Source of the DNA: Alphaproteobacteria bacterium
GTDB taxonomy: Bacteria; Pseudomonadota; Alphaproteobacteria; Rhodobacterales; Rhodobacteraceae
Assembly: GCA_013151335.1 (NCBI GenBank)
Contig: JAADIJ010000021.1
Coordinates: 9,446 to 51,495 of the forward strand
DNA length: 42,050 nt
Direction of reading: 5' to 3'
The notes beneath the pieces were generated by a model. It did no database searches. It saw nothing but the letters and a program-made list of their open reading frames with translations, and was not told the DNA's origin. Positions 1 to 23,255 of this stretch are shown here, in pieces. The position numbers and the translations under genes are program-made. Numbering within the stretch: position 1 is the first letter of the stretch; the number at the start of each line of letters is the position of its first letter.

Positions 1-290
1 CGCTGTTTTTGATCATCACGCTCAGGTCGATGTTTCGTCTGATCCGCGAGCGTGACCCGTTTATTCGTCTGGCTGGCACCGGCTTGGCGACGCTGTTTGG
101 TTTACAAGCTCTGATCAATCTCGGTGTTGCGGCGCGATTGTTGCCAGCTAAGGGGATGACCCTGCCATTTGTGTCCTATGGAGGCTCATCTTTGATCGCG
201 GCAGGGATTGCATTAGGGATGCTTCTGGCGTTTACACGAACCCGGCCACAAGGGGAGATGGGCGATATTTTCCGACGGCGGGCAAGGTAA
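1..290 (+). CDS. ftsW: FtsW, lipid II polymerase/divisome protein (C-terminal end, 5' truncated)
   Basis: Only the last 95 residues are visible; the reading frame (codons from base 3) is open to the left edge. The segment ends with two hydrophobic helices separated by a loop carrying [14 protein letters not shown], the conserved C-terminal signature of the SEDS family (FtsW/RodA), followed by a short basic cytoplasmic tail (RRRAR). FtsW is the septal peptidoglycan glycosyltransferase that works with a class B PBP in the inner membrane. Identification as FtsW rather than RodA rests on position: it is directly followed by murG and murC in the standard division-cluster order. The stop (TAA) lies 8 bases before the murG start, so the two are almost certainly co-transcribed. 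Confidence 0.93.
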
Positions 291-298
291 GGCATAAG

Positions 299-1399
299 AT
301 GGGCGCGCAACGAACGCTGATAATCGCAGCCGGAGGCACTGGCGGGCATATGTTTCCCGCCCAAGCTCTGGCCGAAGAAATGTTAAAGGCGGGCTGGCAG
401 GTCAAACTGTCAACCGACGCGCGAGGAGCGCGGTTCATCAGCGATTTCCCCTCCGAGGTGACGGTTCAAATTGTTGACAGCGCCAGTTTTGGTCGCGGCG
501 GTTTGCTCGCCAAATTGCTGACGCCCCTGCATCTGATCAAGGGCGTTCTAAGCGCGACTTGGCGCATGCTGATCGAGCGCCCTTCGGCGGTGGCAGGGTT
601 TGGCGGCTATCCGGCTTTTCCGGCGATGGCAGCCGCATGGATCACTCGCCGGCCGCGCATGATCCATGAGCAAAACGGAGTTTTAGGTCGGGTTAATCGG
701 CTGTTCGCGCGGCGGGTCAATCAGGTTGCTTGCGGCATGTGGCCGACCGATCTTCCGAGCGGCGTTGAGGGGATACACACCGGCAATCCGGTGCGTGCCT
801 CGGTGTTGGAGCGCGAGAGTGCGCAGTTCATCGAGCCGGGTGACTATCCCATGAGCATCTTGGTGATGGGGGGCTCGCAAGGTGCGCGCATCCTCTCTGA
901 CGTGGTGCCGGGTGCGATTGCGTTGCTGCCGGAAAGTATTTTGAAAAACCTGCGGGTCTCGCATCAGGCCCGCGCCGAGGATGTGGAGGCTGTGCGCCAA
1001 CGCTACGCCGATTGCGGTGTCACCGCCGATGTGGAGATCTTCTTTGATGATGTGCCGTCGCGACTGGCCGAGGCGCAATTGGTGGTGTCGCGTGCAGGGG
1101 CCTCGTCCATCGCTGACATCGCGGTGATTGGTCGTCCGGCGATTTTCATTCCGCTGGCTGCGGCCTTGCGCGATGAGCAAACCGCCAACGCAAAGGGCTT
1201 GGTTGATGCCGGAGCCGCGCTTATGATCACCGAGGATGATCTGACCGCGCTGGGTCTGGCGCGCGAGATCGAGGCGATCCTGACGGACGGTCCGCGAGCG
1301 ATCAAAATGGCCAACGCGGCCAAGGCATTTGGCAAGCCCGAAGCCACGCAATCCTTGGCGCTGATCGTGGAAGATTTGGTTTTCGGAGATAAAATATGA
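299..1399 (+). CDS. murG: MurG, UDP-GlcNAc:lipid I N-acetylglucosaminyltransferase
   Basis: A 366-residue GT-B enzyme, the normal length for MurG. It transfers GlcNAc from UDP-GlcNAc to lipid I, giving lipid II, at the inner face of the cytoplasmic membrane. The N-terminal glycine loop GGTGGH is at residues 12-17. The second glycine loop GGSQG is at 191-195. The UDP-GlcNAc-binding signature beginning RAGASSIAD starts at residue 265 and runs to a DEQTANA stretch. ATG 299 is preceded by AAGG at 289-292 with a 6-nt spacer, which supports this start. It lies between ftsW and murC with only 10 nt to murC, in the canonical order. Nothing looks odd in the sequence. Confidence 0.97.
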
Positions 1400-1409
1400 G
1401 CGAGCGGTC

Positions 1410-2822
1410 ATGAGTGCAGCCACCAAATTGCCAACAGATATCGGCCCGATCCACTTTGTCGGCATCGGCGGTATTGGCATGTCGGGCATTGCCGAGGTTC
1501 TGCTGAACCATGGCTATGATGTGCGCGGTTCTGATCTGAAGGCGACCAAGATTACCAAGCGTCTGGTCTCGCTGGGGGCGAAGATATTTGTCGGGCAAAA
1601 GGCCGAAAACCTGGTCGGAGCATCCGTGGTCGTGATCTCCTCCGCCATCAAACCGGGCAACCCCGAGTTGGATGAGGCCAGCAAGCTTGGCCTGCCCATC
1701 GTGCGCCGCGCCGAGATGCTGGCCGAGTTGATGCGCCTGAAATCCAACGTGGCCATCGCCGGAACTCATGGCAAAACCACCACTACGACTATGGTCGCGA
1801 CCCTGCTTGACGCGGGCGGCCTGGACCCGACCGTGATCAATGGCGGCATCATTCACGCCTACGGCAGCAATGCGCGCATGGGGCAGGGCGAGTGGATGGT
1901 GGTCGAGGCCGACGAGAGCGATGGCACCTTCATCAAGCTCCCCGCAACCATCGCCATTGTTACCAATATCGACGCCGAACATATGGAGCATTACGGGAAT
2001 TTCGATGCTCTGCGGGATGCGTTTTATACCTTTGTTCATAACATTCCGTTTTACGGCGTGGCGGTTTGCTGCACCGATCACCCCGAGGTTCAAGCCTTGG
2101 TCGGGCGTATTCGCGACCGCCGGGTGATCACTTACGGGTTCAACGCGCAGGCTGACGTTCGCGCGGGCAATTTGACTTATCAAAAAGGTGTCGCGCATTT
2201 TGACGTTTATCTGCGCGACGAGGATCAGCGGATCAACGGTATGACCCTGCCCATGCCGGGCGATCACAACGTGCTGAATGCGCTCAGCGCCATCGCGGTT
2301 GCGCGTCATCTGGGGATGAAAGCTGGCGAAATTCGCGAGGCTCTGGCCAATTTCAAAGGGGTTAATCGCCGCTTTACCAAAGTTGGCGAAGTCAACGGGG
2401 TGACCATTATTGACGATTACGGCCATCATCCGGTCGAGATTGCGGCTGTGCTCAAGGCGGCACGACAAGCAACCGAGGGGCGGGTGATCGCGGTCCATCA
2501 ACCCCATCGCTACAGCCGTCTTGCCGGCTTGTTTGAGGATTTCTGCACCTGTTTTAACGACGCCGATGTGGTGGCGATTTCCGATGTGTTTGCCGCTGGC
2601 GAAGAACCTATTGAGGGGGCCAGCCGCGATGATCTGGTCGCTGGTCTGATCTCGCACGGGCATCACCATGCCTTGGCGCTTGAAACAGAAGAGGGGCTGG
2701 CCGAGCTTGTTCGCCGCGAGGCCAAACCCGGTGATATGGTGGTTTGTCTTGGCGCGGGTACGATCTCGGCTTGGGCCAACGCGCTGCCGGAAAGGCTTGC
2801 ATCGGAAAGGCTTGCACGATGA
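1410..2822 (+). CDS. murC: MurC, UDP-N-acetylmuramate--L-alanine ligase
   Basis: A 470-residue cytoplasmic Mur ligase that adds L-Ala to UDP-MurNAc, using ATP. The N-terminal Rossmann motif [12 protein letters not shown] is visible near residues 16-27. The ATP P-loop GTHGKT is at 118-123, and [11 protein letters not shown] and the HQPHRYSR segment of the C-terminal domain follow. Length and domain order are standard. The extreme C-terminus contains a perfect-looking 15-nt tandem duplication (2788-2817) that encodes [10 protein letters not shown], so the tail has probably been lengthened by slippage. The stop overlaps the start of the next gene by 4 bases (ATGA), suggesting translational coupling. 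Confidence 0.97.
2788..2817 (+). repeat. 15-nt tandem duplication at the 3' end of murC
   Basis: Two adjacent copies of CGGAAAGGCTTGCAT/C (2788-2802 and 2803-2817) differ only at their last base. The unit length keeps the frame and duplicates the pentapeptide ERLAS/R just before the stop of murC. It looks like a recent slippage or duplication event. Confidence 0.9.
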
Positions 2823-3127
2823 ATGGTTCATTTTTGGCGACAATCGTTTGGGTGTTGGTGATCTCCTTTGTCGGCATGTTGCCAATGACCTATCACAAAC
2901 GCTTTGGTTTTCCGCTGCTGGCGATATTCCCGTTCGTGCTGATCTACCTCGGCTGGCAAAACGGAATTTACTGGTCGCTGGCGTTGCTGTTTGCGGCACT
3001 CTCGATTTATCGCTATCCGGCCAAATATTATGGCCGCCTGCTGTGGCGCAAAATCTCGGGTAAAGACGCCGCCAAAGATGCTGCTAAAGATGCTGCCAAA
3101 ATCTCTGCCAAAGACGCTGCCGATTAG
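2819..3127 (+). CDS. DUF2484 family small membrane protein
   Basis: A 102-residue protein starting at ATG 2819, which overlaps the murC stop by 4 bases. An upstream extension of the frame into murC is not needed. Two hydrophobic segments are visible (about residues 5-20 and 27-60), with basic residues after them, so it is an inner-membrane protein. The position between murC and murB and the core ([19 protein letters not shown]) match the DUF2484 family, which I recall as a Rhodobacterales companion of this cluster; its function is unknown. Unusual here is a tail of five KDAA-like units (residues 82-101), encoded by a 12-nt tandem repeat, giving a charged lysine/alanine/aspartate extension. 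The stop abuts the murB start, so it is part of the same operon. Confidence 0.8.
3062..3121 (+). repeat. 12-nt tandem repeat, five in-frame units (KDAA tail)
   Basis: Five consecutive 12-nt units of the form AAA-GAY-GCY-GCY begin at 3062, 3074, 3086, 3098 and 3110. The fourth is diverged (AAAATCTCTGCC, encoding KISA). They encode the C-terminal KDAA repeats of the DUF2484 protein. Synonymous differences between units (GAC/GAT, GCC/GCT) show that the array is not brand new. Confidence 0.9.
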
Positions 3128-4076
3128 ATGAGCGGCGCTGACTGGATATCATCCTTGCCACAACTCGCCGGAAAAACCACGCGAGATCGCGTTATGGCCG
3201 ACCTGTCATGGTTGCGTGTCGGAGGAGCGGTCGATCTGTTGTTTCAGCCCGCGCATATGGCCGATATTTCGACCTTCATGCGCGCTGTTCCAGACGACGT
3301 AAACGTGATGCCAATCGGTGTTTGCTCCAATCTGATCGTGCGCGATGGTGGTATTCGCGGCGCGGTCATTCGGCTTGGGCGCGGCTTTAACGGCTTTGAG
3401 GTTATGGCCAATGGTTGCGTTCGTGTGGGGGCCAGCGCGCTGGATGCGCAGATTGCCAAGAAAGCCGCCGAGGCCGGTTTTGATCTGACGTTTCTGCGCA
3501 CCATTCCCGGCGCGATTGGCGGAGCAATTCGCATGAATGCCGGGTGTTACGGCCATTATCTGGCCGATGTGTTCGTGTCGGCAACGGCGGTTCGCCGCGA
3601 TGGCAAGGTCGTGACGCTAAAGCCGCAGGACATGGATTTCGCCTATCGCCATACCGGCTTGCCGCCTGATCTGGTGATTGTGCAAGCGGTGCTCAGTCCG
3701 CCAAAAGGGGAGCCTGCCGCGCTTGAGGCCAAGATGGCGGCGGCGCTTGAGATGCGGGCTAAATCGCAGCCTGTGAAAGAGCGCTCTTGTGGCTCGACCT
3801 TTCGCAATCCCGCCGGTTTTTCCACGTATTCCGGATATTGATTTTATTAATGTCATATTCTATTCGATTATTATTAAGATGTTTAGCAAGATGCGCGGTT
3901 TTCGCCTTGGCGGGGCCGAGATGTCGCAAAAACATCCCAATTTTCTGATCAATACCGGCGATGCCACCGCTGCCGATCTGGAAAATCTTGGCGAGGATGT
4001 GAGAAAAAAGGTCTTTCAACACGCGGGAATAACGTTAGAGTGGGAGATCATGAGGGTCGGCGAACCGGCCCCTTGA
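3128..4076 (+). pseudogene. murB: MurB, UDP-N-acetylenolpyruvoylglucosamine reductase, apparently frameshifted
   Basis: MurB is the FAD enzyme that reduces UDP-GlcNAc-enolpyruvate to UDP-MurNAc with NADPH. The frame from ATG 3128 (directly after the previous stop) gives 237 residues with the FAD domain and the [11 protein letters not shown] motif carrying the catalytic serine, but it hits TGA at 3839-3841. The C-terminal part ([20 protein letters not shown] to the LEWEIMRVG tail with the catalytic glutamate) lies in the next frame and ends at 4076. Between them, 3824-3890 (67 nt) is about 25 percent GC and encodes nothing resembling the usual linker with its DLKAW..ID.AG motif. Its length is about that of the expected 22 codons plus one base. 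The gene is either mutated or misassembled here. Total span and flanking residues match a normal MurB of roughly 310 residues. Confidence 0.85.
3824..3890. other. Anomalous AT-rich block inside murB
   Basis: By hand count, 17 of these 67 bases are G or C, against clearly GC-rich flanks. It replaces the conserved MurB linker, leaves the flanking codons intact, has several stops in the murB frame, and is open in the +1 frame. I see no inverted-repeat ends, target duplication or recognisable mobile-element sequence. Confidence 0.75.
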
Positions 4077-4090
4077 AATAAAACAATAAA

Positions 4091-4110
4091 AAGGCCCGAA
4101 AACGGGCTTT
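4091..4110 (+). terminator. Short intrinsic-terminator-like hairpin between murB and ddl
   Basis: AAGGCCCG (4091-4098) pairs with CGGGCTTT (4103-4110) around an AAAA loop, with one G-U pair. The tract after the stem is only TTT. It would make a weak terminator or attenuator inside the division cluster, just upstream of ddl. Confidence 0.5.
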
Positions 4111-4131
4111 GAGCAGTGAATTGAGGCGGGT

Positions 4132-5046
4132 ATGTCCACTGACACTCCCTCCCGTATAGCAGTCCTCAAAGGCGGCCCAAGCGCTGAACGCGAGGTATCT
4201 TTGTCGTCAGGGCATGAATGTGCCAAGGCGCTGCGGGATGAAGGATTCGACGTAATCGAGCTGGACGCTGGGCCGGACCTTGCCGCTGTGTTGCAAGCAG
4301 AAAAGCCTGACGTGGTGTTCAACGCGCTCCATGGTCGCTGGGGCGAGGATGGCTGCGTGCAAGGCCTGCTTGAGTGGCTCGGAATTCCTTACACCCATTC
4401 CGGCGTGCTGGCCTCGTCGCTGGCGATGGATAAAGAGCGCACCAAGGCCGCTTATCGCGTGGCCGGTTTGCCGATTGTTAAGAGCTTGCTGGTGCCAGCC
4501 GAGGTGGCGCGCAAAGAGCACCCGATGGAGCCGCCTTACGTGATCAAGCCCTATAATGAAGGCTCATCAGTGGGTATTTATTTCGTCCACGAGGCCGCGA
4601 ACGGTCCGGCCAAGCTTGCGCAGGATATGCCCGAAACCGTCATGGTTGAGGCGTTCGTACCGGGCCGCGAGCTGACCACGACGGTGATGGGTGAGCGCGC
4701 TTTGAGTGTCACCGATATTCTGACCGATGGCTGGTATGATTATGACGCCAAGTACAAAACCGGCGGCTCGCGTCATGTGGTGCCTGCCGATTTGCCCGCG
4801 CCGATATGTGAGGCCTGCATGGAATATGCGGTGCGCGCGCATCAGGCGCTCGGCTGTCGCGGCATCAGTCGCACCGATTATCGCTGGGATGAGAGCCGAG
4901 GCCTTGACGGGTTGATCCTGCTTGAAACCAACACCCAGCCCGGCATGACGCCTACGTCCCTGTCGCCCGAACAGGCCGAAATTTGCGGCATCTCGTTTGG
5001 CGCGCTGTGTCGTTGGCTGGTGGAGGACGCGTCGTGCAACCGGTGA
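4132..5046 (+). CDS. ddl: Ddl, D-alanine--D-alanine ligase
   Basis: A 304-residue ATP-grasp ligase that makes D-Ala-D-Ala for the UDP-MurNAc-pentapeptide. The N-terminal GGPSAEREVS (residues 14-23) has the substrate-binding glutamate. LHGRWGEDG (67-75), KPYNEGSSVG (139-148) of the ATP-grasp fold and ETNTQPGMTPTSL with metal-binding residues near the C-terminus are all present. Length is normal for DdlB. ATG 4132 is preceded by GAGG at 4123-4126. The 3' end overlaps ftsQ by 13 nt. A weak terminator-like hairpin sits just upstream, so ddl may also be read from a promoter of its own, but I could not identify one. Confidence 0.97.
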   Translation: MSTDTPSRIAVLKGGPSAEREVSLSSGHECAKALRDEGFDVIELDAGPDLAAVLQAEKPDVVFNALHGRWGEDGCVQGLLEWLGIPYTHSGVLASSLAMDKERTKAAYRVAGLPIVKSLLVPAEVARKEHPMEPPYVIKPYNEGSSVGIYFVHEAANGPAKLAQDMPETVMVEAFVPGRELTTTVMGERALSVTDILTDGWYDYDAKYKTGGSRHVVPADLPAPICEACMEYAVRAHQALGCRGISRTDYRWDESRGLDGLILLETNTQPGMTPTSLSPEQAEICGISFGALCRWLVEDASCNR

Positions 5047-5927
5047 ACCCGCATCATAAAGACCCAGCTCCGAGCCGGGTTTCCTACCGGGTTCAGCGCT
5101 TGTGGCTGACGCCGGTTTTTCGCGCGATGTTGTTTACGGGCGTGCCGGTTTTTGCGGTCATTCTTGCCGTGAGTTGGTACATTTCTGACAATACACGGGT
5201 TGAGAATATCCGCTTGAAGGTCGCCACTATCCGCCAGAATATCGAAAACCGACCGGAATTCATGGTTAACCTGATGCGTATCGATGATGTCTCCGCCGAG
5301 GTCTCCGAGGATATTCGTGTGGTGACCGCCGTTGACTATCCAATCAGCTCGTTTGAGCTGGACCTCAAGGATATGCGCGCGCGGATCGAGGGGCTGGACG
5401 CGGTTTCCAGCGCCAAGCTGGTCGTGCGTTCTGGCGGTATTTTGGATGTCATCGTTACCGAACGATTGCCCGCGTTGGTGTGGCGCAGTCGTGATGGGCT
5501 GGAGCTGTTGGACCAGAGCGGGCATCGGGTTTCAAGTCTGGACACGCGCCAGATGCGCTCGGATTTGCCGCTGATTGTCGGGGACGGGGCGGATAATGCC
5601 ACCGAGGAGGCTTTGGCGCTGATCAAGGCCGCAAGCCCGATTGCCGGTCGAATTCGCGGCCTTAATCGCATCGGCGAGCGGCGCTGGGACGTGGTTTTGG
5701 ATCGCAACATGCGCATCATGCTGCCCGAAGAAAATCCGGTCGCCGCCCTTGAGGGCATCTTGGCGCTGGACGAGGTTGACGCGCTTTTATCGCGGGATTT
5801 GCAGGCGATAGACTTGCGCGACCCGCGCCGTACCACCTTGCGCCTGACTGACAATGCCGAGAAGAATTTGCGAGCAAACCCCGACAGCTCAACCCCCAAT
5901 AATACCGACGGAGGTTCATCCCTATGA
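5034..5927 (+). CDS. ftsQ: FtsQ, divisome scaffold protein
   Basis: A bitopic inner-membrane protein of 297 residues from GTG 5034. I chose this start because GGAGG at 5022-5026 lies 7 nt upstream; the frame is open further left inside ddl, but that extension has no such site. A short cytoplasmic N-terminus is followed by one membrane helix (about 31-50), a POTRA domain (about 76-146) and the FtsQ beta domain (VTERLPALVW onwards). FtsQ links FtsL/FtsB to the other divisome proteins in the periplasm. The polar, Ser/Asn-rich C-terminal tail is probably disordered. It overlaps ddl by 13 nt and ftsA by 4 nt, indicating translational coupling. Confidence 0.95.
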   Translation: MQPVNPHHKDPAPSRVSYRVQRLWLTPVFRAMLFTGVPVFAVILAVSWYISDNTRVENIRLKVATIRQNIENRPEFMVNLMRIDDVSAEVSEDIRVVTAVDYPISSFELDLKDMRARIEGLDAVSSAKLVVRSGGILDVIVTERLPALVWRSRDGLELLDQSGHRVSSLDTRQMRSDLPLIVGDGADNATEEALALIKAASPIAGRIRGLNRIGERRWDVVLDRNMRIMLPEENPVAALEGILALDEVDALLSRDLQAIDLRDPRRTTLRLTDNAEKNLRANPDSSTPNNTDGGSSL

Positions 5928-7257
5928 CCCAGCTTTACCAATCCCAACGGGCCATGCGCGCCCAGCGTCAGGCCGCGATGCAACGGGGAATTGTTGCCAT
6001 TCTTGATATTGGCACCTCGAAAATCGCCTGTCTGGTGTTGCGTTTTGATGGTGCGGCCAACGTCCCGCTGGTGGACGGGGTTGGCAGCATGTCCGGCCAG
6101 TCGCGCTTTCGGGTCGCGGGGGTGTTTAACACGCGCTCGCGCGGTGTGACCTTCGGCGAGATCGACCGTATGGAGGAAACCGAGCGCGCCATTCGCACGG
6201 CCGTTCAAGGCGCGCAGAAAATGGCCAATGTGCGCATTGACCATGTGATCGCCTGTTTTTCGGGCGCGCGCCCGCGCTCTTACGGGCTGGCCGGTTCGGT
6301 TGCGCTGGAAGATACATGCGTCACCGAGCATGATATCGCCCGCGTTCTGGCCGATTGCGACATACCGGATTATGGCGATGACCGTCAGGTCGTTCACGCG
6401 CTGCCGGTCAATTTTGCGCTTGATCACCGCTCGGGCCTGTCTGATCCCCGTGGGCAGATCGGCAACAAGCTGTCGGTTGATATGCATATGCTGACCATTG
6501 ATACCTCGGCGATTGAAAACGTTTTGCACTGTATCAAACGCTGTGATCTGGAGCTGGCGGGGATCGCTTCGTCGGCCTATGCCAGCGGGGTTTCCTCATT
6601 GGTTGAAACGAGCAACAGCTTGGCGCGGCTTGCATCGACATCGGCGGCGGCACCACCGGGATTTCGATTTTTATCCGCAAGCACATGATTTTCGCCGATA
6701 CGGTACGAATGGGCGGCGAGCATATTACCTCCGATATCTCGCAAGGTTTGCAGGTGCCACTGGTGATGGCCGAGCGGATCAAAGCGCGGTTTGGCGGGGT
6801 TGAGGCCACTGGAATTGATGATCGCGAGATGATTGATCTTGGCGGCGAGACCGGCGATTGGGAGCTTGACCGCCGCCGTGTCAGCCGCGCCGAGCTGATC
6901 GGCATCATGCGCCCGCGTGTTGAGGAAATACTGGAGGAGGTGCGCGCGCGGCTTGATGCGGCCGGGTTTGAGCATCTCCCCAGCCAGCGGATCGTTTTGA
7001 CGGGGGGCAGCAGCCAGATCCTCGGGATTGGCGAGATTGCCAGCAAGATCTTTGGTCGGCAGGTACGACTTGGGCGACCTTTGCGGGTGCGCGGATTGCC
7101 GCAAAACGCGACCAACCCCTCGTTCTCGGCGGCGGTTGGGCTGTGTTTGCACGCGGCAAACCCGCAAGACGAGTGCTGGGATTTTGAGGCTCCAATGGAT
7201 CGTTACGCGGGCCGGTCGATCAAACGGGCGGTGAAATGGTTTCGTGAGAACTGGTGA
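5924..7257 (+). pseudogene. ftsA: FtsA, actin-like cell-division protein, with an apparent 1-nt deletion
   Basis: FtsA is the actin-family ATPase that tethers FtsZ to the membrane. The first part (from ATG 5924) has the phosphate-1 loop DIGTSK (28-33) and the 1C domain, but changes frame and stops at 6688. The rest is in another frame: ACIDIGGGTTG (phosphate-2), then LTGGSSQILGI (adenosine loop), and a C-terminal amphipathic helix ending KWFRENW (membrane targeting). Inserting one G at 6621-6623 (TTGGCGCG to TTGGGCGCG) restores LGAACIDIGGGTTG and a 444-residue protein, the usual length. The lesion is therefore a single missing G in a short G run, either a sequencing/assembly error or a true mutation. 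It overlaps ftsQ by 4 nt. Confidence 0.88.
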
Positions 7258-7329
7258 AGGCGGGCTTGGCGGGGGCCAAACTTCGCCAATAGGCAAAAAT
7301 ACGCCAATAAATCGCTCTAACCCCAACAT

Positions 7330-7349
7330 ATTGTGGTAAAAAGCACAAT
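7330..7349. promoter_or_regulatory. Inverted repeat in the ftsA-ftsZ intergenic region
   Basis: ATTGTG (7330-7335) and CACAAT (7344-7349) form a perfect 6-bp inverted repeat with an 8-nt spacer, followed by a T run to 7353. It could be an operator for ftsZ or a weak terminator after ftsA. The 192 bases between ftsA and ftsZ are also where an ftsZ promoter would be expected, but I cannot assign one reliably. Confidence 0.35.
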
Positions 7350-7449
7350 TTTTAGGTGACCAGACAGATTGGCTCGGTTACCATATGGAATCAACGGTAT
7401 AATAATCGACCATAAGGTCGACCCTACAGGCAAGCAGGCGGACAGTATC

Positions 7450-9081
7450 ATGGCTTTGAATCTTCGGATGCCCGACAAGTTGGACCTTAGACCGAAAATC
7501 ACGGTTTTCGGGGTTGGCGGGGCAGGCGGCAACGCTGTTAACAACATGATCGACAAAGCGTTGGAGGGGGCCGATTTCGTGGTCGCCAATACCGATGCGC
7601 AGGCGCTGGCGCAGTCCAAGGCTCCGCAAAAAATCCAGATGGGCGAAAAAGTCACCGAAGGCCTCGGGGCTGGTGCGCGACCCTCTGTCGGGGCGGCTGC
7701 CGCTGAAGAGAGTATTGAAGAGATCGTTGACCGGCTTGCTGGCTCGCATATGTGTTTCATCACGGCGGGCATGGGCGGCGGTACCGGCACGGGGGCGGCT
7801 CCGATTATTGCGCGCGCGGCGCGTGAGCTTGGGGTTCTGACCGTCGGCGTGGTGACAAAACCGTTCCAGTTTGAAGGCAACAAGCGGATGCGGCAGGCCG
7901 AAGAGGGTGTTGATGCCCTGCAAAAGGTCGTCGATACGCTGATTATCATTCCCAACCAGAACCTGTTTCGTATCGCCAACGAGAAAACCACCTTTACCGA
8001 GGCGTTCTCCATGGCTGATGATGTGCTTTACCAAGGGGTCAAAGGCGTGACCGACCTAATGGTGCGCCCCGGTATCATCAACCTCGATTTCGCCGATGTT
8101 CGCTCTGTGATGGACGAAATGGGCAAAGCGATGATGGGCACGGGCGAGGCCAGTGGCGAGAACCGCGCCATTCAGGCGGCGGAAAAAGCCATCGCTAATC
8201 CGTTGCTTGACGAGATCAGTCTTAAAGGCGCGCGCGGCGTTTTGATCAACATCACCGGCAGCCATGACTTGACCCTGTTTGAACTGGATGAGGCCGCCAA
8301 TCGCATCCGCGAAGAGGTCGATCAGGACGCAAATATTATCGTCGGCTCGACGCTGGATACTGAAATGGAAGGCATGATGCGGGTTTCGGTCGTAGCGACA
8401 GGAATTGATGCCGCTGAAATCGCCTATGACATGCCGGTTCCGCGCCGTAAGATGTCCGAGCCGCTGGCTCCCCAAAGAGTTGAAGAGCCTGCGCCGAGCT
8501 TTAGGACATCCTCGAAATTCGCCAGCACCGAGGCCGATACCGGCTATGAAGAAGAGCAGCCAAGCTTGCTTGACGAGATGGAAAACGACGCGGTTTTCGC
8601 CGATGCTGACGACGAGATGTCGCTGTTTGACGCGCCAAGCGTGCAGCACGCAACCGACGATTTGCCGCCTCCGGTATACCAGCCGGAGCGTCAGCAACGT
8701 GTCGCCGCTCGGCAATTCGCCGAACCTTACGTCGAACCCGACGTCGGCTCTGATCTGACCGGATTTGTTGCGCCCAAACCGCCGAGCCCCGGAAATCCGT
8801 CGCCAAATACCATGGCACGCCTTCAGGCTGCGGTTAACAAAGCCCCAAGAGCGCGCGCGGATGGCCGCCCTTCTGTGGATAATAGTGCATCGCCGGAAAA
8901 ATCTGGTCGGTTTGGCATCAATAGTTTGATCAATCGAATGACGGGCCACGCACAGGAAGCTTCGGCGAGCGAAACTTCGCAGCGTATTCACCCAAGGGTC
9001 GATACTGAGCAGGCCACTGAAACTGATCCTGAGCAGGAACGCATTGATATTCCAGCGTTTTTGCGGCGTCAGGCGAATTAG
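7450..9081 (+). CDS. ftsZ: FtsZ, tubulin-like cell-division GTPase
   Basis: A 543-residue protein from ATG 7450; an upstream in-frame extension exists, but MALNLRMPD is the expected alphaproteobacterial N-terminus. GTP-binding elements are [13 protein letters not shown] near residue 20, the tubulin signature GGGTGTG at 109-115 and [11 protein letters not shown] (T7 loop). After the globular domain (to about residue 320) there is a long, charged, proline-rich linker of roughly 200 residues, typical of alphaproteobacteria. The protein ends with the conserved peptide [11 protein letters not shown], which binds FtsA and other partners. FtsZ assembles the cytokinetic ring. It is separated from ftsA by 192 nt, so it probably has its own promoter. 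Confidence 0.98.
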
Positions 9082-9151
9082 GATTAACTTTTCGGGCTTC
9101 GTTTAAGCCAAAATTCCCGTACTGATTCGGCGGAGTTTTGGCCTCTTCTGG

Positions 9152-9193
9152 CTATGGGTCAAAATGGAAACAAAGTGTTTCCTGTCTCCATAG
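9152..9193 (+). promoter_or_regulatory. Nested stem-loop between ftsZ and lpxC
   Basis: Outer arms CTATGG (9152-9157) and CCATAG (9188-9193) enclose a perfect 7-bp inner stem, GGAAACA (9166-9172) and TGTTTCC (9176-9182), with an AAG loop. It lies 70 nt after the ftsZ stop and about 157 nt before lpxC. No T run follows, so it is not a standard terminator. It may be a leader-RNA structure or a protein-binding site. Confidence 0.5.
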
Positions 9194-9349
9194 GCGAAAA
9201 TCCGCAGACGGGCCGTCGCATTGTTGCAATTGGTCACAAAGATTGAGTTGAGATTAACCTGCCCCTTCAATAGGAAAGGTTCAAGTTGGTGAAATGCCTC
9301 GGAAAAAACGCAGACACGCCACATTCAAAAGCCTTTTAGGGGACACTTG

Positions 9350-10270
9350 GTGCAGACGACCATAAAAAACGTGATAAGCCTCGTGGGCACAGGACTACAC
9401 TCCGGTCGCCCCGTGCGGATGCAGATTTTTCCGGCGTCGGCTGAATATGGTATCTGGTTTCGCCGGATCGACATTCATGATCGCGATAACCTGATTTCCG
9501 CGCGCTATGACAACGTCACCGATACGCGTCTGTGTACCCATCTCAGCAATGATGCTGGGGCCGATATCTCGACTGTCGAACATCTGATGGCCGCACTTAT
9601 CGGCTGTGGAATTCACAACGCTCTGATCGAGGTTGACGGACCAGAAGTGCCGATCATGGACGGAAGCTCGGATCGGTTCGTGCGCGAATTATTATCCGTT
9701 GGCGTTCAGAAACTGAATGCGCCGGTTCGTGTCATTCGAATTCTTGAAAAAGTCGAAATCGAAGCGGGCGGTGTCAAAGTTTCGATTGAACCTTGCGATA
9801 ACCTGGAGATTGAATTCTCTATAGATTTTCCTGACGCGGCGATTGGCCAGCAATCCAAAAGCCTCAATATGGCCAATGGCGCTTTCGTTCGCGAGCTGCG
9901 CGACAGCCGCACGTTTTGCCGCAAGGCTGATGTGGATTGGATGCTGTCCCAAGGTCTGGGACTTGGCGGAAATCTGGAAAATGCGCTGGTTGTTGATGGC
10001 GATCAAGTTCTTACACCCGGTGGAATGCGTCACGCGGATGAATGTGTGCGCCACAAGATGCTTGATGCGCTTGGAGATCTTGCGCTGGCAGGTGCTCCGA
10101 TCATTGGACGCTATTCGGGTGTGCGTGCCGGTCATGCGGCGACCAACGCGTTGCTGCGTAAACTCTTTGCGAATCCAATGGCTTACGAGATGGTCACCTG
10201 CGATGCAGAGACCTCGAACAAGCTGCCCGGCGTCGGTGTGATCCGCACAGACGTGATCCGCGTTGCCTGA
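9350..10270 (+). CDS. lpxC: LpxC, UDP-3-O-acyl-N-acetylglucosamine deacetylase
   Basis: A 306-residue zinc amidase catalysing the first committed step of lipid A synthesis, in the cytoplasm. GTG 9350 is chosen because AGGGG at 9338-9342 is 7 nt upstream; a TTG at 9347 would be too close. The motif TVEHLMAAL contains the first zinc histidine, and RHKMLDALGDLAL contains the HxxxD zinc ligands. The N-terminal GTGLHSG and the substrate-loop segment EVPIMDGSS are also typical. Length matches the family. It follows ftsZ after a 268-nt gap containing a nested stem-loop; this order (ftsZ-lpxC) is widespread in proteobacteria. Confidence 0.97.
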   Translation: MQTTIKNVISLVGTGLHSGRPVRMQIFPASAEYGIWFRRIDIHDRDNLISARYDNVTDTRLCTHLSNDAGADISTVEHLMAALIGCGIHNALIEVDGPEVPIMDGSSDRFVRELLSVGVQKLNAPVRVIRILEKVEIEAGGVKVSIEPCDNLEIEFSIDFPDAAIGQQSKSLNMANGAFVRELRDSRTFCRKADVDWMLSQGLGLGGNLENALVVDGDQVLTPGGMRHADECVRHKMLDALGDLALAGAPIIGRYSGVRAGHAATNALLRKLFANPMAYEMVTCDAETSNKLPGVGVIRTDVIRVA

Positions 10271-10280
10271 CCGCGGTTTT

Positions 10281-10303
10281 GCGCGTGGCGCGCGATAGTT
10301 TTT
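10281..10303 (+). terminator. Possible intrinsic terminator after lpxC
   Basis: GCGCG (10281-10285) and CGCGC (10289-10293) form a 5-bp GC stem with a TGG loop. A T5 run begins 5 nt later (10299-10303). The short stem and the gap before the T run make this only a candidate. Confidence 0.4.
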
Positions 10304-10414
10304 GTTACCGTTCTGTGGCCACAGGTTCCCAAAAATGCCTCAAAACCGTTTTTACTCTTGGCATTTTGTGCTAGGTAACACCACAATAGGGCTGCGATCT
10401 AAAACTGGGATGTG

Positions 10415-11257
10415 ATGCGAATGGGGACGCTAGGGAAACGGGCAAATCGATTTTTGCTTATTGCTGCCGTGCTATTTTTGGCGGCCTGTGCGAAAAAACA
10501 GACCGAAATCCCGCTTGAGCAACGACCGCCTGAATATATTTTCAAGGCAGCCGAGGCCCAGTTGGCGGCCGGGAAAAAGGAAGAGGCGGCGAAGACATTT
10601 GGCGAGGTCGAGCGTCTTTACCCCTATTCTGAATGGGCCAAGCGCGGCATCGTCATGTCGGCTTTTGCCTATCACAAAGCCAAGAAATACGAGCTGGCCC
10701 GCAGCGCAGCGCAGCGCTATCTCGATTTCTACCCCGCCGATGAGGATGCTGCTTACGCGCAATATTTGATGGCGCTGACCTATTATGACCAGATCGACAA
10801 GGTCGCGCGCGATCAGGGCAATACCTTTCAGGCGCTGCAGTCCTTGCGCGTGGTGATCGAGCGTTATCCCGACAGTAAATACGCCAAATCCGCCGCGCTG
10901 AAGTTTGATCTGGCGATAGATCACTTGGCTGGCAAGGAAATGGAAGTCGGACGATATTATCTCAAACGCGGTAATTTCAGCGCGGCAATCAACCGTTTCC
11001 GCGTGGTGGTTGAAGATTACCAAACCACGACCCACACGCCTGAGGCGCTGCATCGACTGGTCGAGGCCTATCTTTCGCTCGGGCTTGATGCCGAGGCGCA
11101 GACCGCTGGCGCGATCCTTGGGTATAACTTTCGAGGGAGCGTTTGGTACGAGGACAGTTACGCGCTGCTGACCGGCAAGGGCTTGCGGCCTGAAGCAAAA
11201 AGCAAGGGCTGGCTCAGCAATATTTATCGCCGGGTTATAAAAGGAACCTGGCTCTGA
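10415..11257 (+). CDS. bamD: BamD, outer-membrane assembly lipoprotein
   Basis: About 280 residues. The N-terminus is a lipoprotein signal with lipobox LAAC, and the mature protein begins at the cysteine about 25 residues in, so it is anchored to the inner leaflet of the outer membrane. TPR repeats cover the rest (for example EYIFKAAEAQLAAGKKEEA and YYLKRGNFSAAINRF). BamD helps BamA fold and insert outer-membrane proteins. The exact start is uncertain: GTG 10412, ATG 10415 and ATG 10421 are all possible near GGGA at 10407-10410. It lies between lpxC and recN in the usual Rhodobacterales order, with 25 nt to recN. Confidence 0.95.
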   Translation: MRMGTLGKRANRFLLIAAVLFLAACAKKQTEIPLEQRPPEYIFKAAEAQLAAGKKEEAAKTFGEVERLYPYSEWAKRGIVMSAFAYHKAKKYELARSAAQRYLDFYPADEDAAYAQYLMALTYYDQIDKVARDQGNTFQALQSLRVVIERYPDSKYAKSAALKFDLAIDHLAGKEMEVGRYYLKRGNFSAAINRFRVVVEDYQTTTHTPEALHRLVEAYLSLGLDAEAQTAGAILGYNFRGSVWYEDSYALLTGKGLRPEAKSKGWLSNIYRRVIKGTWL

Positions 11258-11282
11258 CCGGGGCAAATGAGGGCTGACGCAG

Positions 11283-12935
11283 ATGCTGCGCGGGCTTTTT
11301 ATCCGAGACATGATCCTGATTGACCGGCTGGAGCTTGAGTTCCAACCGGGCCTGAATGTGCTGACCGGAGAAACCGGCGCTGGCAAGTCTATCTTGTTGG
11401 ACTCGTTGGGGTTTGTGCTGGGTTGGCGCGGCAAATCGAACCTTTTGCGCAGCGGGGCCTCGCAAGGAGAGGTGGTTGCCGAGTTTGATGTGGCGGTCGG
11501 GCATCCGGTTGAAAAAATCCTTGAGCAGGCCGGAATTCCCGTTGGCGATGATCTGATTTTGCGCCGTACTAACAGCGCCGGCGGGCGCAAGCAGGCGTTT
11601 GTAAATGACCGGCGTTGCTCTGGCGAAATCCTGCGCCAAATCTCCGATGCGCTGGTGGAAATCCACGGCCAGCATGATGATCGCGGTCTTCTTAATCCAA
11701 GCGGTCATCGGGCGCTGCTTGATGATTTTGCCGATGCCGCTGGCGCGTTGTCTCAGTGTCGGCAGCGCTGGCGCGCGTTGTTTGAGGCGCGAAATGCTCT
11801 GGCTGAGTTGCGGGTAAAACTTGAAAAAGCCCGCGCCGATCAAGATTATTTAAGCCACGCTTATGGCGAGCTCACGGCCCTTGCCCCGGAACCGGGCGAG
11901 GACGCGATCCTCGATGCGAAACGCCGTCTGATGCAGGCGGCCGGGCGCATTCGCGAGGACATCGAAAAGGCGGCCCAAGCGCTTGGATTGCACGGGGCCG
12001 AGGGAGCGATTGGCGATGCGGCCCGTTGGTTGCAAGGGGCCGAGGCGCAGGCCGAGGGGCGGTTGGCCTCGCCGATTGCGGCGCTTTCGCAGGTGCTTGA
12101 AAACCTTGATGCCGCGCAGATCGGGGTTGCCGATTGTCTGGCCGCGCTTGATTTCAATCCACATGATCTGGAGGCAGTTGAAGAGCGCCTTTTTGCCATA
12201 CGAGCCTTGGCGCGCAAACATGACGTGGCGAGCGATGATCTGGCGGAGTTTGCCCTGCTGACCAAGGCCAAGCTTGACGCTATTGAAATTGGCTCGGCCC
12301 TGCTTGCGGACCTTGAGCAAGCGGTTGTGAAAGCAGAGGCCGATCATCAAAATGCTTGCGATTTGCTTGGCGAAAAACGTCGATCTGCGGCTGCCGATCT
12401 CGACAAATCAATGGCGCGCGAATTAGCTCCGCTCAAGATGGAGCGTGCGGTTTTCGTAACCGAGATCGCGCCGATTGCGTCCGGTCCCGATGGGGCGCAG
12501 AGCGTTCGCTTTACCGTCGCAACCAATCCCGGCGCGCCGTCAGGACCGCTGGAGAAGATCGCTTCCGGTGGCGAGCTTTCGCGGTTTTTGCTGGCGTTAA
12601 AGGTTAGCTTAAGCGCGAAAAATCAAGGCGTTACCATGATTTTTGACGAGATCGACCGGGGCGTTGGCGGGGCCACCGCCGACGCGGTTGGTCGCCGCCT
12701 GTCGGCTCTTGCCCAGCAAGGGCAGGTGTTGGTGGTCACGCATTCCCCGCAGGTCGCGGCCCTTGGCGCGCATCACTGGCGGGTGGAAAAAAACACCAGT
12801 GATGGGCAGACCAGATCGACGGTCAATCCGGTTGCGGGCACTGCGCGGGTGGATGAAATCGCGCGTATGTTGGCGGGTGACCGCGTGACGCCAGAGGCGC
12901 GCGCGGCGGCCGAAGTTTTGCTGAAAACCCACTGA
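11283..12935 (+). CDS. recN: RecN, SMC-like DNA repair ATPase
   Basis: A 550-residue protein of the usual RecN length. Walker A GETGAGKS is at residues 29-36. The centre is a long charged coiled-coil region. The ABC signature SGGE (near 429) and Walker B with MIFDEID (452-458) lie in the C-terminal half. RecN bridges DNA near double-strand breaks and assists RecA-dependent repair. It is the last plus-strand gene of this cluster, 25 nt after bamD, and is convergent with the next gene. I did not see an obvious LexA-type operator in the short upstream gap, so it is probably transcribed with bamD at least in part. Confidence 0.97.
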   Translation: MLRGLFIRDMILIDRLELEFQPGLNVLTGETGAGKSILLDSLGFVLGWRGKSNLLRSGASQGEVVAEFDVAVGHPVEKILEQAGIPVGDDLILRRTNSAGGRKQAFVNDRRCSGEILRQISDALVEIHGQHDDRGLLNPSGHRALLDDFADAAGALSQCRQRWRALFEARNALAELRVKLEKARADQDYLSHAYGELTALAPEPGEDAILDAKRRLMQAAGRIREDIEKAAQALGLHGAEGAIGDAARWLQGAEAQAEGRLASPIAALSQVLENLDAAQIGVADCLAALDFNPHDLEAVEERLFAIRALARKHDVASDDLAEFALLTKAKLDAIEIGSALLADLEQAVVKAEADHQNACDLLGEKRRSAAADLDKSMARELAPLKMERAVFVTEIAPIASGPDGAQSVRFTVATNPGAPSGPLEKIASGGELSRFLLALKVSLSAKNQGVTMIFDEIDRGVGGATADAVGRRLSALAQQGQVLVVTHSPQVAALGAHHWRVEKNTSDGQTRSTVNPVAGTARVDEIARMLAGDRVTPEARAAAEVLLKTH

Positions 12936-12975
12936 GCACAACGTCAGCCAAACGGGAGGCGCATGCCTTTGGCCT

Positions 12976-14349
12976 CTAGTTTTGCCGAACAACTTTGCCG
13001 GGGTTCATCAGGTTCTCAGGGTCAAGCGCGCGCTTTATTTCCGACATGACCTGCCAGCCGTCGCCATGTTCCGCTTGCATGAAATCAAGCTTTCCCATGC
13101 CAATACCGTGCTCGCCCGTCACGGTGCCACCAAGAGCGAGCGCGCGCTCGGCCATACGGTGGCTGAGGTTAAGGGCGGTTCGTTTTTCGCCCTCATCGCC
13201 GGGCGTGATCAACAACACGGCGTGGAAATTCCCGTCGCCCACATGGCCAAGGATCGGGCCGGGCAGACCGCTTCGCTCAATGTCGGCGCGGCTTTCGTTC
13301 ACCGCTTGCGCCAGACGCGAGATCGGGACGCAAATATCCGTCACCACCGCTGTCGCCCCCGGTTTCAGGGACAGCGCGGCATAATAAGCGTTGTGACGCA
13401 TGTGCCAAAGAGCGTTGCGATCCTCGGTTTTGCTCGACCATTTGAAATCGGTTCCGCCCATCTCGACCACGATTTCACCAACCCGCGCAGCGTCTTCGGC
13501 GACCGAGGTTTCAGAGCCGTGAAACTCGAGCATTAGGTGAGGTTTTTCGGGCATGTTGGCCCCGCTATAGCCATTAAACGCGCGCGCGGTGGCCTCGTCC
13601 ACGAACTCGATCCTTGCCATCGGAATACCCATTTGAATGGTGGTAATGACGGTGTTGACGGCGGCGTCTATGGTCTCAAACGCGCATATCGCCGAGGAAA
13701 CCGCCTCGGGTTGGCCGTAAAGTTTCAGAGTCAGCGCTGTGATCAACCCGAGCGTGCCTTCCGCCCCCACAAACAGCGCCGTGAGGTCATAACCTGCCGA
13801 AGATTTGCGCGCTCTGCCGCCGGTTTTTATGATCCGCCCGTCGGCCAGAACCACCTCAAGCCCCATCACGTTGTCGCGCATGGTGCCATAACGAACCGCC
13901 GTCGTGCCGCTGGCTCTGGTCGAGGCCATGCCGCCAAGCGAGGCATTTGCGCCGGGGTCAATCGGGAAGAACAGCCCGGTTGCGCGAAGCTCGGTGTTGA
14001 GGGCCTCGCGCGTGATGCCCGGCTGTACCGTGACATCTAAATCATCGGCGTTGAGGTCTAACACCTTGTTCATGCGCGAAAAATCAACGACTATGCCACC
14101 TTGGGCCGCAAGCGCATGCCCTTCAAGCGAGGTGCCAGCCCCCCAACCGATCACCGGCAAATGTCCGGCGGCACAAATCTTGATGATCTGTGAAACCTCG
14201 TCGGTGTTTTCAGGATAGGCGACCGCATCGGGAGGCATCGGCGCAAAATGGGTTTCGTTCTGGCCGTGCAGATCGATATCGGAGCCGGACGTTACCAGCC
14301 GTTTACCAAGCAGGGCGCGCAGCCTCTCCAAACTGTTTTGAAGCGTCAT
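12976..14349 (-). CDS. FAD-linked oxidase, D-lactate dehydrogenase/glycolate oxidase (GlcD-like) family
   Basis: 457 residues from ATG 14349 (MTLQNSLERL). A TTG 22 codons further upstream is also in frame, but it has no ribosome site and is not typical of the family. The N-terminal half is a PCMH-type FAD-binding domain with WGAGTSLEGH and PGANASLGGM. The C-terminal half is the FAD-oxidase C domain with HVGDGNFHAVLL and TGEHGIGMGK. Proteins of this build oxidise D-lactate, glycolate or related 2-hydroxy acids and pass electrons to quinone or cytochrome c at the membrane. The exact substrate cannot be read from the sequence; D-lactate is the best guess. It is convergent with recN and lies 46 nt downstream of a same-strand unknown gene. 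Confidence 0.88.
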   Translation of the reverse strand: MTLQNSLERLRALLGKRLVTSGSDIDLHGQNETHFAPMPPDAVAYPENTDEVSQIIKICAAGHLPVIGWGAGTSLEGHALAAQGGIVVDFSRMNKVLDLNADDLDVTVQPGITREALNTELRATGLFFPIDPGANASLGGMASTRASGTTAVRYGTMRDNVMGLEVVLADGRIIKTGGRARKSSAGYDLTALFVGAEGTLGLITALTLKLYGQPEAVSSAICAFETIDAAVNTVITTIQMGIPMARIEFVDEATARAFNGYSGANMPEKPHLMLEFHGSETSVAEDAARVGEIVVEMGGTDFKWSSKTEDRNALWHMRHNAYYAALSLKPGATAVVTDICVPISRLAQAVNESRADIERSGLPGPILGHVGDGNFHAVLLITPGDEGEKRTALNLSHRMAERALALGGTVTGEHGIGMGKLDFMQAEHGDGWQVMSEIKRALDPENLMNPGKVVRQN

Positions 14350-14395
14350 TCCATTTGATCCCGTTATCTGTTCGGCCAATGCCAACAGCGCGGAC

Positions 14396-14965
14396 CTATC
14401 GGCAGGAGTATCCAAAGCTGGTTTTGAGCTGGCCGGGGAATTTCAGTTCGAGATGGTGCAAAAGTATGCCGGTGCTGACAAGGCCTATTTCGAGTTTTTT
14501 GCTATCGGGCAGGGCCACCACCAGGTCGTTGGCGACCAATTTATAGCTTACACCGTTTATTGGTCCCGCAGTATTTGGCAGGGTAATGCGCCCGTTCTCG
14601 ATCAACAGCGGATTTAGGCATTCAGGCGTGGTATAGGAGGCCGAAACTCGTTTTGCGGTGCTCGCAATCGACCAGCGCCCCAGCAAAAAATCTGGTGCTT
14701 TACTTTTGAGGCGGTCATAGCCGTTGATGCGGCGATACTCGCGCAAGTAGAAATTATACCCGGCAACGCCTTTTATTTCATTCAGATATTGCTGCGGCGC
14801 GGACATCTTGAGATTTGCGAAATACCGCTCGGCGCGGTTTTGCTGGTGATTGAGAAACCAGATATACCCAGCCAAAAGAATGATCCCGAAAATCAAAATC
14901 CCCATGGTTTCGCGCTTGATGCGGCGCCACTCGATAAATCGCAGGGATCGTTGGACTTTGGTCAT
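14396..14965 (-). CDS. Membrane-anchored hypothetical protein
   Basis: A 189-residue protein I do not recognise. A basic N-terminus (about residues 1-20) is followed by one hydrophobic helix at about 21-39 (MGILIFGIILLAGYIWFLN). The rest is a soluble, probably periplasmic domain with several tyrosines and two cysteines (one in PECLNP, one near the C-terminus). AGAGG-like bases about 9 nt upstream of ATG 14965 support the start; an internal ATG at residue 21 is less likely. It sits 46 nt upstream of the FAD-oxidase gene on the same strand and diverges from the CLC gene. Function unknown. Confidence 0.75.
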   Translation of the reverse strand: MTKVQRSLRFIEWRRIKRETMGILIFGIILLAGYIWFLNHQQNRAERYFANLKMSAPQQYLNEIKGVAGYNFYLREYRRINGYDRLKSKAPDFLLGRWSIASTAKRVSASYTTPECLNPLLIENGRITLPNTAGPINGVSYKLVANDLVVALPDSKKLEIGLVSTGILLHHLELKFPGQLKTSFGYSCR

Positions 14966-15120
14966 GCGGATTTACCTCTTAAATCGGTCCACAAGTGGCA
15001 TTACATCGCGACAATCGCGCAACAGTCGGCCTTCGGAGTGATATTTTGGGTGTTGTGTCAAGTGAGCGTTGCACGGCGCGCGAACTCGGTCTAGTTGCGG
15101 CGTAGTTTAAGGACATTCAA

Positions 15121-16878
15121 ATGGCACAGATCGAACCTGCACACAATCGGCAAGTTAACCTCATCACGTTGTCGCTTATTGCGGTGGTGATTGGTACCGT
15201 TACCGGCTTGGGTGCCGTGTTCCTGCGCTGGTTGATCGGCGTTATCCATAATCTGTTTTTTCTTGGCCAGTTCGCGTCGGGCTATGACGCCAATATGCCA
15301 ACCGCCGAAAGCCCGTTTGGCGCGTGGGTCATACTTGCGCCGGTTATTGGCGGTGCGATCGTGGTGTTTCTGGTCAACAGGTTTGCACCCGAGGCCCGAG
15401 GTCACGGCGTGCCCGAAGTGATGGATGCAATTTATTTTCGCAACGGCTATATCCGGCCCGCCGTGGTTGTCATCAAGTCGCTGGCCTCTGCTTTGTCCAT
15501 CGGCTCCGGGGCCTCTGTCGGGCGCGAAGGGCCGATCATTCAGATCGGCAGCGGTATTGGCTCTGTTCTGGGGCGGGCGCTGCATCTTCGCCATTGGCAG
15601 GTTATTACCATGGTCGCAGCAGGCGCGGGGGCGGGGATCGCCGCCACGTTCAACACACCACTGGGAGCGGTGATGTTCGCGATCGAACTCATGCTGCCCG
15701 AGTTCAGTGCGCGCACCTTCCTCCCCGTGGTTCTGGCCACGGGAGCGGCGACCTATGTAGGTCGTCTGATCTTTGGCAACGAGCCGGCATTTTTGGTGGC
15801 GAGCTACAACTTGCCCGACCCCTTCGTTCCGCTTTCGGTGGATATGTTGCCGCTTTTTGCCATACTCGGCGTGCTGGCCGGCATCGCGTCGTGGTTGTTC
15901 GTTTGGCTGTTGCACTGGCTTGAGGATCGTTTCGATGCCATGCCGTATAACGCCTATATTCGCAACGCGATTGGCATGCTGTTTCTGGGGGTTTTATTTT
16001 ATGTGATGATGCGCACCACCGGCATGTACCAAACTGCCGGTGTTGGATATGCGACCATTCAGGCCATTCTCAATGGCGGTATCACCGCTGCTGGCCTGTT
16101 GATGGTGCTGTTCGTGGCCAAGCTGTTGGCGACCTGTATTAGTTTGGCGTCGGGCGCGTCGGGCGGAATTTTCTCACCCTCGCTGTTTTTGGGGGCCACT
16201 CTTGGTGGCGCATTCGGCTCGACGCTGGACGCAATCTGGCCGCAGCTTGGCTTTAGCCCGATTACTTTCGCGCTGGTCGGTATGGCCGGGTTGGTTGGTG
16301 GTAGCACCGGGGCGGCGATGACCGCGATCATGATGATCTTCGAGATGACTGGCGATTATAACATCACGCTTGCCGCGATTATCGCGGTCGCAACAGCAAT
16401 CGGCACGCGGCGCACGCTGGTTGTGGAAAACATCTACACCATGAAGCTGGCGCGGCGCGGCCATCATGTGCCCAGGGATCATCGAACCCATATGTTCCCG
16501 ATCCGGCTGGCGACCGAAGTTATGAAGCCGGTGGTGGCATCGGTTCAGGCCGCCGATCTGGTACGCGTTCCGGCGACGCTTTCGGATATGTTACCGTCTG
16601 ATATGGTGCATGTGGTCGTGGCAAAAGGGCGGATGATTGTTGGCATGGCGTTGGTGGATAAAAACGATTTCACGCGGGCTTACTCTCCCATACGCACAAA
16701 TTTCGGAATTGCGCGCGAGAACAATCTCTTGGAGATAATCTTGACCCGAATGGTTGAGCGCGGCCATGAGTTCGATCTTGTGGTCAAAGGCAAAGGCGTT
16801 CCACGACCGGAGAATGTTCTAGGGGTTGTGTCCCACGCCGCGATTACGGCCTCGGTTTTGCACGATTATGAGGGTTAA
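15121..16878 (+). CDS. CLC family chloride channel or transporter
   Basis: 585 residues. About ten or more hydrophobic helices fill residues 10-440, followed by a soluble C-terminal region starting TEVMKP that resembles a (degenerate) CBS-domain pair. CLC filter motifs are visible: GHGVPEV (94-100, with His where the E. coli protein has the filter Ser), GREGP (134-138, gating Glu136) and GGIFSP (348-353). Aligning NTPLGAVMFAIEL with the E. coli segment puts Leu190 at the position of the internal proton glutamate Glu203, so proton coupling may be altered or absent. ATG 15121 has AAGGA 7 nt upstream. It could move Cl- or another anion such as fluoride or nitrate, though CLC-F proteins look different. 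Confidence 0.93.
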   Translation: MAQIEPAHNRQVNLITLSLIAVVIGTVTGLGAVFLRWLIGVIHNLFFLGQFASGYDANMPTAESPFGAWVILAPVIGGAIVVFLVNRFAPEARGHGVPEVMDAIYFRNGYIRPAVVVIKSLASALSIGSGASVGREGPIIQIGSGIGSVLGRALHLRHWQVITMVAAGAGAGIAATFNTPLGAVMFAIELMLPEFSARTFLPVVLATGAATYVGRLIFGNEPAFLVASYNLPDPFVPLSVDMLPLFAILGVLAGIASWLFVWLLHWLEDRFDAMPYNAYIRNAIGMLFLGVLFYVMMRTTGMYQTAGVGYATIQAILNGGITAAGLLMVLFVAKLLATCISLASGASGGIFSPSLFLGATLGGAFGSTLDAIWPQLGFSPITFALVGMAGLVGGSTGAAMTAIMMIFEMTGDYNITLAAIIAVATAIGTRRTLVVENIYTMKLARRGHHVPRDHRTHMFPIRLATEVMKPVVASVQAADLVRVPATLSDMLPSDMVHVVVAKGRMIVGMALVDKNDFTRAYSPIRTNFGIARENNLLEIILTRMVERGHEFDLVVKGKGVPRPENVLGVVSHAAITASVLHDYEG

Positions 16879-16914
16879 TATTTAGAGAGCGGCTGCGCGG
16901 TTCCGGTGGTCGCG

Positions 16915-17256
16915 CTAAATTTGTTCGACAACCACCACGTTTGGGTAAAACGCCACGCATCCCGCGACACCCGAGGCGGACTCGAACGGCTCCTCATAAC
17001 ACCAAGCGGCGTCGGCGAGCAGACCGCTTTTGGTCTGAATCCCGAAATAAGAGGCCGTGCCTTTATGTGGGCAATAGGATGATTTGTCGGATTTCTCGAA
17101 GAACTCCATCGCGATATCATCTTGCGGGAAATAGATCATCACCGGCATTTCACCCTCTGTGAGCGCGACCGCTTTGGTGGTTTCGGCCAGAATTGCGCCA
17201 CCGGCGCGCGCGACCCAAGTACCTTTGGCGGGATGGGTTTTGATGTGATCGTTCAT
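16915..17256 (-). CDS. DUF427 domain-containing protein
   Basis: A 113-residue protein matching the DUF427 family, with YCPHKGTASYF and a tryptophan-containing AWCYEEPF segment, ending with VAFYPNVVVVE. Family length and motif order are normal. The biochemical role is not established. AGGAGAG just upstream of ATG 17256 supports the start. It is convergent with the CLC gene (36 nt apart) and 57 nt upstream of the pepP stop on the same strand. Confidence 0.9.
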   Translation of the reverse strand: MNDHIKTHPAKGTWVARAGGAILAETTKAVALTEGEMPVMIYFPQDDIAMEFFEKSDKSSYCPHKGTASYFGIQTKSGLLADAAWCYEEPFESASGVAGCVAFYPNVVVVEQI

Positions 17257-17313
17257 GGCGCTCTCCTGTTGCAGAGGGTCAGCATACAGGTGCGAGGTCA
17301 GGGCGCAACCGTC

Positions 17314-19119: not shown

Positions 19120-19193
19120 TCTGCCTGTCCTTTTTTGCCGCATGGCGGTCGTTGGCCAAGGCCAGACGTCATGTAATTACTGACGAGCCGCGT

Positions 19194-21065: not shown

Positions 21066-21121
21066 AGCAGCCCCCTAAATTTATGGCCAGCAATCGAGGC
21101 CCGGTGTTCGCCGTGGCCAAT

Positions 21122-22108: not shown

Positions 22109-22230
22109 GCGTCATTCCGTTGTCCAGCCGTCACCCTCAGGTGGCAGTATTTCAGTCTTGTTTAGTGGCGCAAATCATTGGGATGCGCAAGAGGGCGCGC
22201 GTGCAACCTGACGTTACTTGAGCGCAGGCT

Positions 22231-23243: not shown

Positions 23244-23255
23244 GCGGAGGGTTGG

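Follow-up and report, generated by a model that had tools for sequence, protein, structure and literature searches.

A 73-base Chlorobiota segment in murB of a draft Rhodobacteraceae genome, best explained as an assembly or library chimera

The murB gene in a draft genome of the family Rhodobacteraceae is broken by 73 bases that are identical to a stretch of a Chlorobiota MAG. The break lies in the window, the whole stretch of 42,050 nucleotides analyzed here. We put a probability of about 0.86 on the explanation that the block is a chimeric joint in the draft, in which a scrap of presumably co-sequenced Chlorobiota stands where native murB bases are missing. The evidence that carries this explanation is the exact match to a single donor, the breakage of the sole murB found in an otherwise whole cell wall gene neighbourhood, and the presence of gaps and other frame lesions in the same assembly.

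Interruption of the murB frame

The lesion is made up of three features, given in the coordinates of the window:
3128 to 3823, plus strand: upstream part of murB, with FAD_binding_4 and the start of MurB_C; 78% identity to the relative L023
3820 to 3892, no strand given: foreign patch in murB, a 73-base exact copy of L051 5193-5265 replacing about 66 native bases
3894 to 4076, plus strand: downstream part of murB in another frame, E 3.2e-17 to MurB_C; 83% identity to L023

The murB frame from 3128 is unbroken up to the codon that closes ...GFS at 3823 and then runs into a stop at 3839-3841, and the downstream half restarts at RGFRLGG from 3894 in a different frame. The halves match the MurB_C profile (PF02873) at positions 3-32 and 43-98, the upstream match falling under the curated cut-off as is expected of a fragment. 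No continuous reading frame crosses the C-terminal domain of MurB, which is left in two pieces in different frames; each of the nine other same-genus genomes has a single unbroken MurB_C match. A sequence-only reading of the window had described an AT-rich block at 3824-3890, of about 25 percent GC and with stops in frame, between intact flanks of murB. This was borne out, since the halves are good to 3823 and from 3894, 17 of the 67 bases are G or C (0.254) and the stop at 3839-3841 lies within the block.

The murB segment was aligned with those of 12 relatives, 8 from the same genus and 4 from the same family, out of 30 returned loci. In the relatives the native segment mostly reads like STGxADDVHDLKAWKVIDDAG(L/M). 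The alignment agreed with the earlier view that a conserved segment has been replaced, as native codons were swapped out and not added to. From GFS to RG there are 70 bases here against 66 in all 12 aligned relatives, or 67 against 63 when the codon preceding RG is taken as native. The net change in length is +4 and in frame +1; the frame shift of +1 claimed at first sight therefore stands, and the length of 67 against 66 given with it does not. The codon differences to L023 are mostly synonymous in both halves (upstream, 104 are synonymous and 51 non-synonymous among 232 codons; downstream, 25 and 10 among 60), so that a long decay did not take place, and both halves look constrained.

AT-richness by itself is not rare in this genome. 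In the 42-kb window, 14 of 41,984 windows of 67 bases have a GC content no higher than that of 3824-3890, and 765 kb of the genome hold 48 spots with a 67-base GC of up to 0.31, the murB block included, 35 of them with no open frame of 120 codons spanning them. What is beyond chance is the position of the block within a conserved gene, together with its exact 73-base match to one other organism.

Source of the patch

The source was sought by an exact scan of the GTDB r220 genomes using 27 bases of the block, which gave three hits, apparently all at one conserved gene start. Two of them, Flavobacterium croceum (L050) and a Polaribacter MAG (L052), match the 27 bases exactly in the region of this gene start but part from the block further downstream, and were rejected. 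L051, a stretch of contig JAADIS010000025.1 from a Chlorobiota MAG (isolate M_MetaBat.65), is identical to window 3820-3892 in all 73 bases and in the same orientation at its positions 5193-5265. There the patch is the beginning of a glmM-like gene of 461 codons (3844-5229, minus strand), read on the reverse strand; the gene scores above the cut-off of TIGR03990 (phosphoglucosamine mutase), and the patch holds its first 12 codons plus 36 bases of leader. Compared with the Chlorobiota phosphoglucosamine mutase gene, murB carries the leader and first codons without a single mismatch, but as a mere fragment in antisense.

Among 173 genomes of the donor family, 47 match the patch at E up to 0.001, and the MAG itself is the only one that matches it in full length. 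The matches in the other 46 end at or before position 41 in 34 cases (the coding part is 1-37), none goes past position 63, and the best has 84% identity over bases 1-61. The sole full match in the donor family points to the species of the MAG, or one very near to it, as the source. In the recipient family, the patch was found only in this assembly and in none of the 393 others among 394 genomes. The sequence-only reading had offered a misassembled or chimeric stretch as one of two explanations, and the exact Chlorobiota copy supports it, although it falls short of proof.

Several other origins were considered and rejected. Based on alignment scores set against 2000 dinucleotide shuffles, the block has no residual similarity to the 8 same-genus segments, either as decayed native sequence (mean score p 0.16, best score p 0.44) or as inverted decayed native sequence (p 0.75 for the reverse complement). 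A local copy or inversion is not supported, as the best matches within about 2 kb on either side score 7.5 and 9.0 against a mean of 9.5 for 200 shuffles. A search for a second copy of the block in the assembly returned just 18- and 14-base hits with E of 0.43 and 2.8. An origin from a phage or a plasmid gained no support: weak matches (E up to 10) came from 123 phage records and 54 plasmid records, none of them over 80% of the query; the best 20 of the 123 and the best 20 of the 54 reach at most E 0.1 and 54% of the query. Of two scans of viral contigs, one gave a 21-base match in an unrelated context and the other none.

Joints and search for further donor sequence

At the left joint, TTCC is common to both sequences and the last 14 bases are identical at 11 positions; across 372 kb of the donor genome, counting both strands, a fraction of 7.4e-5 of sites reaches this level. 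Given TTCC, 7 of the 10 further bases agree (0.0066). The right joint, judged from the relatives, shares one or two bases at most, and a displaced match of 10 out of 12 bases lies a few bases on (p about 0.02). The spacing between the similar stretches is near equal in donor and recipient. The similarity on the left exceeds chance and suggests that the joining was guided by weak annealing or weak alignment, which could happen in the cell, in the tube or in software.

No second convincing donor patch was found in the parts compared, which were covered by three comparisons. When 765 kb of the assembly was compared with 372 kb of the donor MAG, the next matches after the block covered 49 bases at 81.6% identity (E 1e-5) and 39 bases at 84.6% (E 2.9e-4). 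The first of these pairs L114 6818-6866 with L104 15641-15689 and is probably a conserved gene. Against the entire donor MAG, window 1-3780 gave a 21-base match at 3397-3417 (E 0.02), which fits murB of the relatives, and two weaker ones. The same comparison for window 3961-23960 yielded a match of 56 bases at 77% identity (E 0.005), another of 22 bases without mismatch (E 0.03) and a weaker one. The donor contig had a second match in the entire assembly of 72% over 82 bases (E 8e-4) and another with E 0.12; the former, L085 1430-1511 with G000:C163:24236-24317, is probably again a conserved gene. In our judgement, none of these matches is longer than expected by chance or gene conservation.

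State of the assembly

The assembly has 3,288,827 bases in 227 contigs, with tool figures of 98.63% completeness and 0.02 contamination, and the window lies in contig C12. The gene order is murG, murC, a small gene, murB, ddl, ftsQ, ftsA and ftsZ, and murG, murC and ddl beside the broken murB are whole. The other explanation of the sequence-only reading, a lesion compensated by another murB, found no support, since neither the MurB_C Pfam model nor the MurB protein of a relative detected a second murB in the assembly.

Eight N runs of 12-84 bases each occur in the 765 kb sampled. The window itself spans exactly the interval between two such runs, C12 9398-9445 (48 N, L036) and 51496-51579 (84 N, L037). 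Elsewhere, a run of 69 N stands in for about 25 codons of another gene that are present in a relative, which shows that the assembly does contain gaps of the same size as the lost murB segment. N runs are present in the donor MAG as well, with three in 20 stretches sampled; this fits a common pipeline and does not prove one.

Frame lesions were counted by applying the same reference ORFs of a relative genome (G007) to this assembly and to controls, the matched ORFs being stop-to-stop frames, some of them antisense, and not gene counts. Nine flags were raised in 178 matched ORFs (49,963 residues) of this assembly, against none in 102 matched ORFs (28,992 residues) from 130 kb of three other same-genus genomes, a control set smaller than the assembly sample. 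After leaving out the duplicate strand of one lesion, an antisense pair between murG and murC, and two coincidences with N runs, five lesions remain: that in murB and the following four.
5924 to 7257 of the window, plus strand: ftsA, in which a one-base loss near 6607 leaves two frames, 5924-6688 and 6685-7257
L067, about 1099-1158: one-base loss compared with G007
L106, about 1494: five-base loss compared with G007
L071, about 6832: 44-base difference from G007 in a low-complexity part near an N run

The ftsA lesion is 2.8 kb from that of murB, and its flanks match ftsA of four same-genus stretches in an alignment; this split is probably an assembly error too. Models of 16S and 23S rRNA found no match in the assembly. 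This absence would fit a MAG, but it was given no weight because these models also failed to hit 5 and 4 of 14 control genomes, respectively, and the 23S search missed three of four same-genus genomes.

Discussion

How, then, could a scrap of a Chlorobiota gene come to stand in murB? Chimeric joints and wrongly closed gaps are a general class of error in draft or metagenome assemblies. The draft would come from a metagenome, or from a DNA preparation in which the Chlorobiota donor was also present. Some 66 native murB bases would be missing from the contig, their place taken by the 73-base piece from the start of the glmM-like gene on the reverse strand, and the left joining would have occurred where both sequences have TTCC and a run of weak similarity. 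Either a short scaffold gap or a spot of low coverage was closed with a wrong read, or a chimeric library molecule was carried into the assembly; these are two routes by which the joint may have formed. The presence of donor and recipient in a single sequenced sample is something we infer, as is the step that made the joint.

An artefact is favored because the sole murB found is broken while the adjoining murG, murC and ddl are whole, because the assembly is scaffolded with N gaps of similar size, and because it has more frame lesions than its same-genus peers. As in other members of this class, foreign sequence from a single other organism sits between native flanks, in a scaffold that has N gaps of the same size range and further frame lesions. 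The present case differs in that the patch is very short and the left joint has just four bases in common. Some observations weigh against an artefact. The bases shared at the joints, four at the left one and one or two at the right, are few by the standards of usual assemblers and gap closers, it is unusual for a chimeric molecule to have two joints and come back almost in register, and the parts compared yielded no second donor patch, although further patches are not a necessary feature of an assembly or library chimera.

The isolate name M_MetaBat led us to suspect the East Pacific Rise M-vent study as a source of the donor sample. The string itself was not found in the literature searched. 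In that study, binning used contigs over 3 kb and MetaBAT2, with a maximum k of 92 in IDBA-UD (PMC7329443). The link is unproven, and a maximum k of 92, as given there, does not fit the contig name contig-127.

The strongest alternative, which we nevertheless regard as improbable, is that a short Chlorobiota single strand, annealing at two weakly matching murB sites in the course of replication or transformation, took the place of the sequence between these sites. The two flanking similarities, that on the left rare in the donor genome and that on the right displaced, could fit this, as could their near-equal spacing, the shortness of the replacement and the foreign donor. Short-patch double illegitimate recombination (SPDIR) is known from naturally transformed Acinetobacter baylyi, where it likewise leaves a short foreign patch between weakly similar flanks by replacement and not insertion. 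Double illegitimate recombination in A. baylyi has been published, to go by its title, by Hulter and Wackernagel (2008; reference list of PMC8116780), and a full account of the short-patch process was not found in the literature searched. Unlike in A. baylyi, however, the sole murB found is destroyed, the donor belongs to another phylum and the patch is known from an assembly alone. Recombination would have removed the only murB found while the wall pathway seen remains whole, and a living consensus genome should not carry such a patch. The other frame lesions of the assembly, that in ftsA included, and the occurrence of the patch in one of 394 family genomes also speak against it. The fuller proposal, a natural cross-phylum event with its donor caught, in which the glmM start of a Chlorobiota entered murB of a neighbouring proteobacterium, in a cell or subpopulation that survives or has just lost MurB, is about as improbable.

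Compared with an assembly or library chimera, the remaining explanations fare poorly. It is very unlikely that murB was truly lost and its role taken over by some other enzyme or a further murB: at 98.63% completeness a missed copy is possible in principle, but neither another MurB_C domain nor a further full-length MurB match turned up in the genome. The idea that murB received a mobile or regulatory element, or that the segment is bypassed or spliced out, has neat edges as the sole point in its favor and can practically be dismissed, as the segment takes the place of native codons rather than adding to them, has no copy elsewhere in the assembly or in the 393 other family genomes, and is the start of an ordinary glmM-like gene in its source, which already refutes the element reading.

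These results suggest that a draft of this completeness and contamination may still carry a foreign scrap within a core gene, too short for the usual contamination checks and yet traceable to its source species. Were it genuine, the patch would offer a rare example from nature of cross-phylum illegitimate recombination whose donor is known. As it stands, it merits a note in the genome record and not a biological claim, and annotation of this genome would wrongly call murB and ftsA lost.
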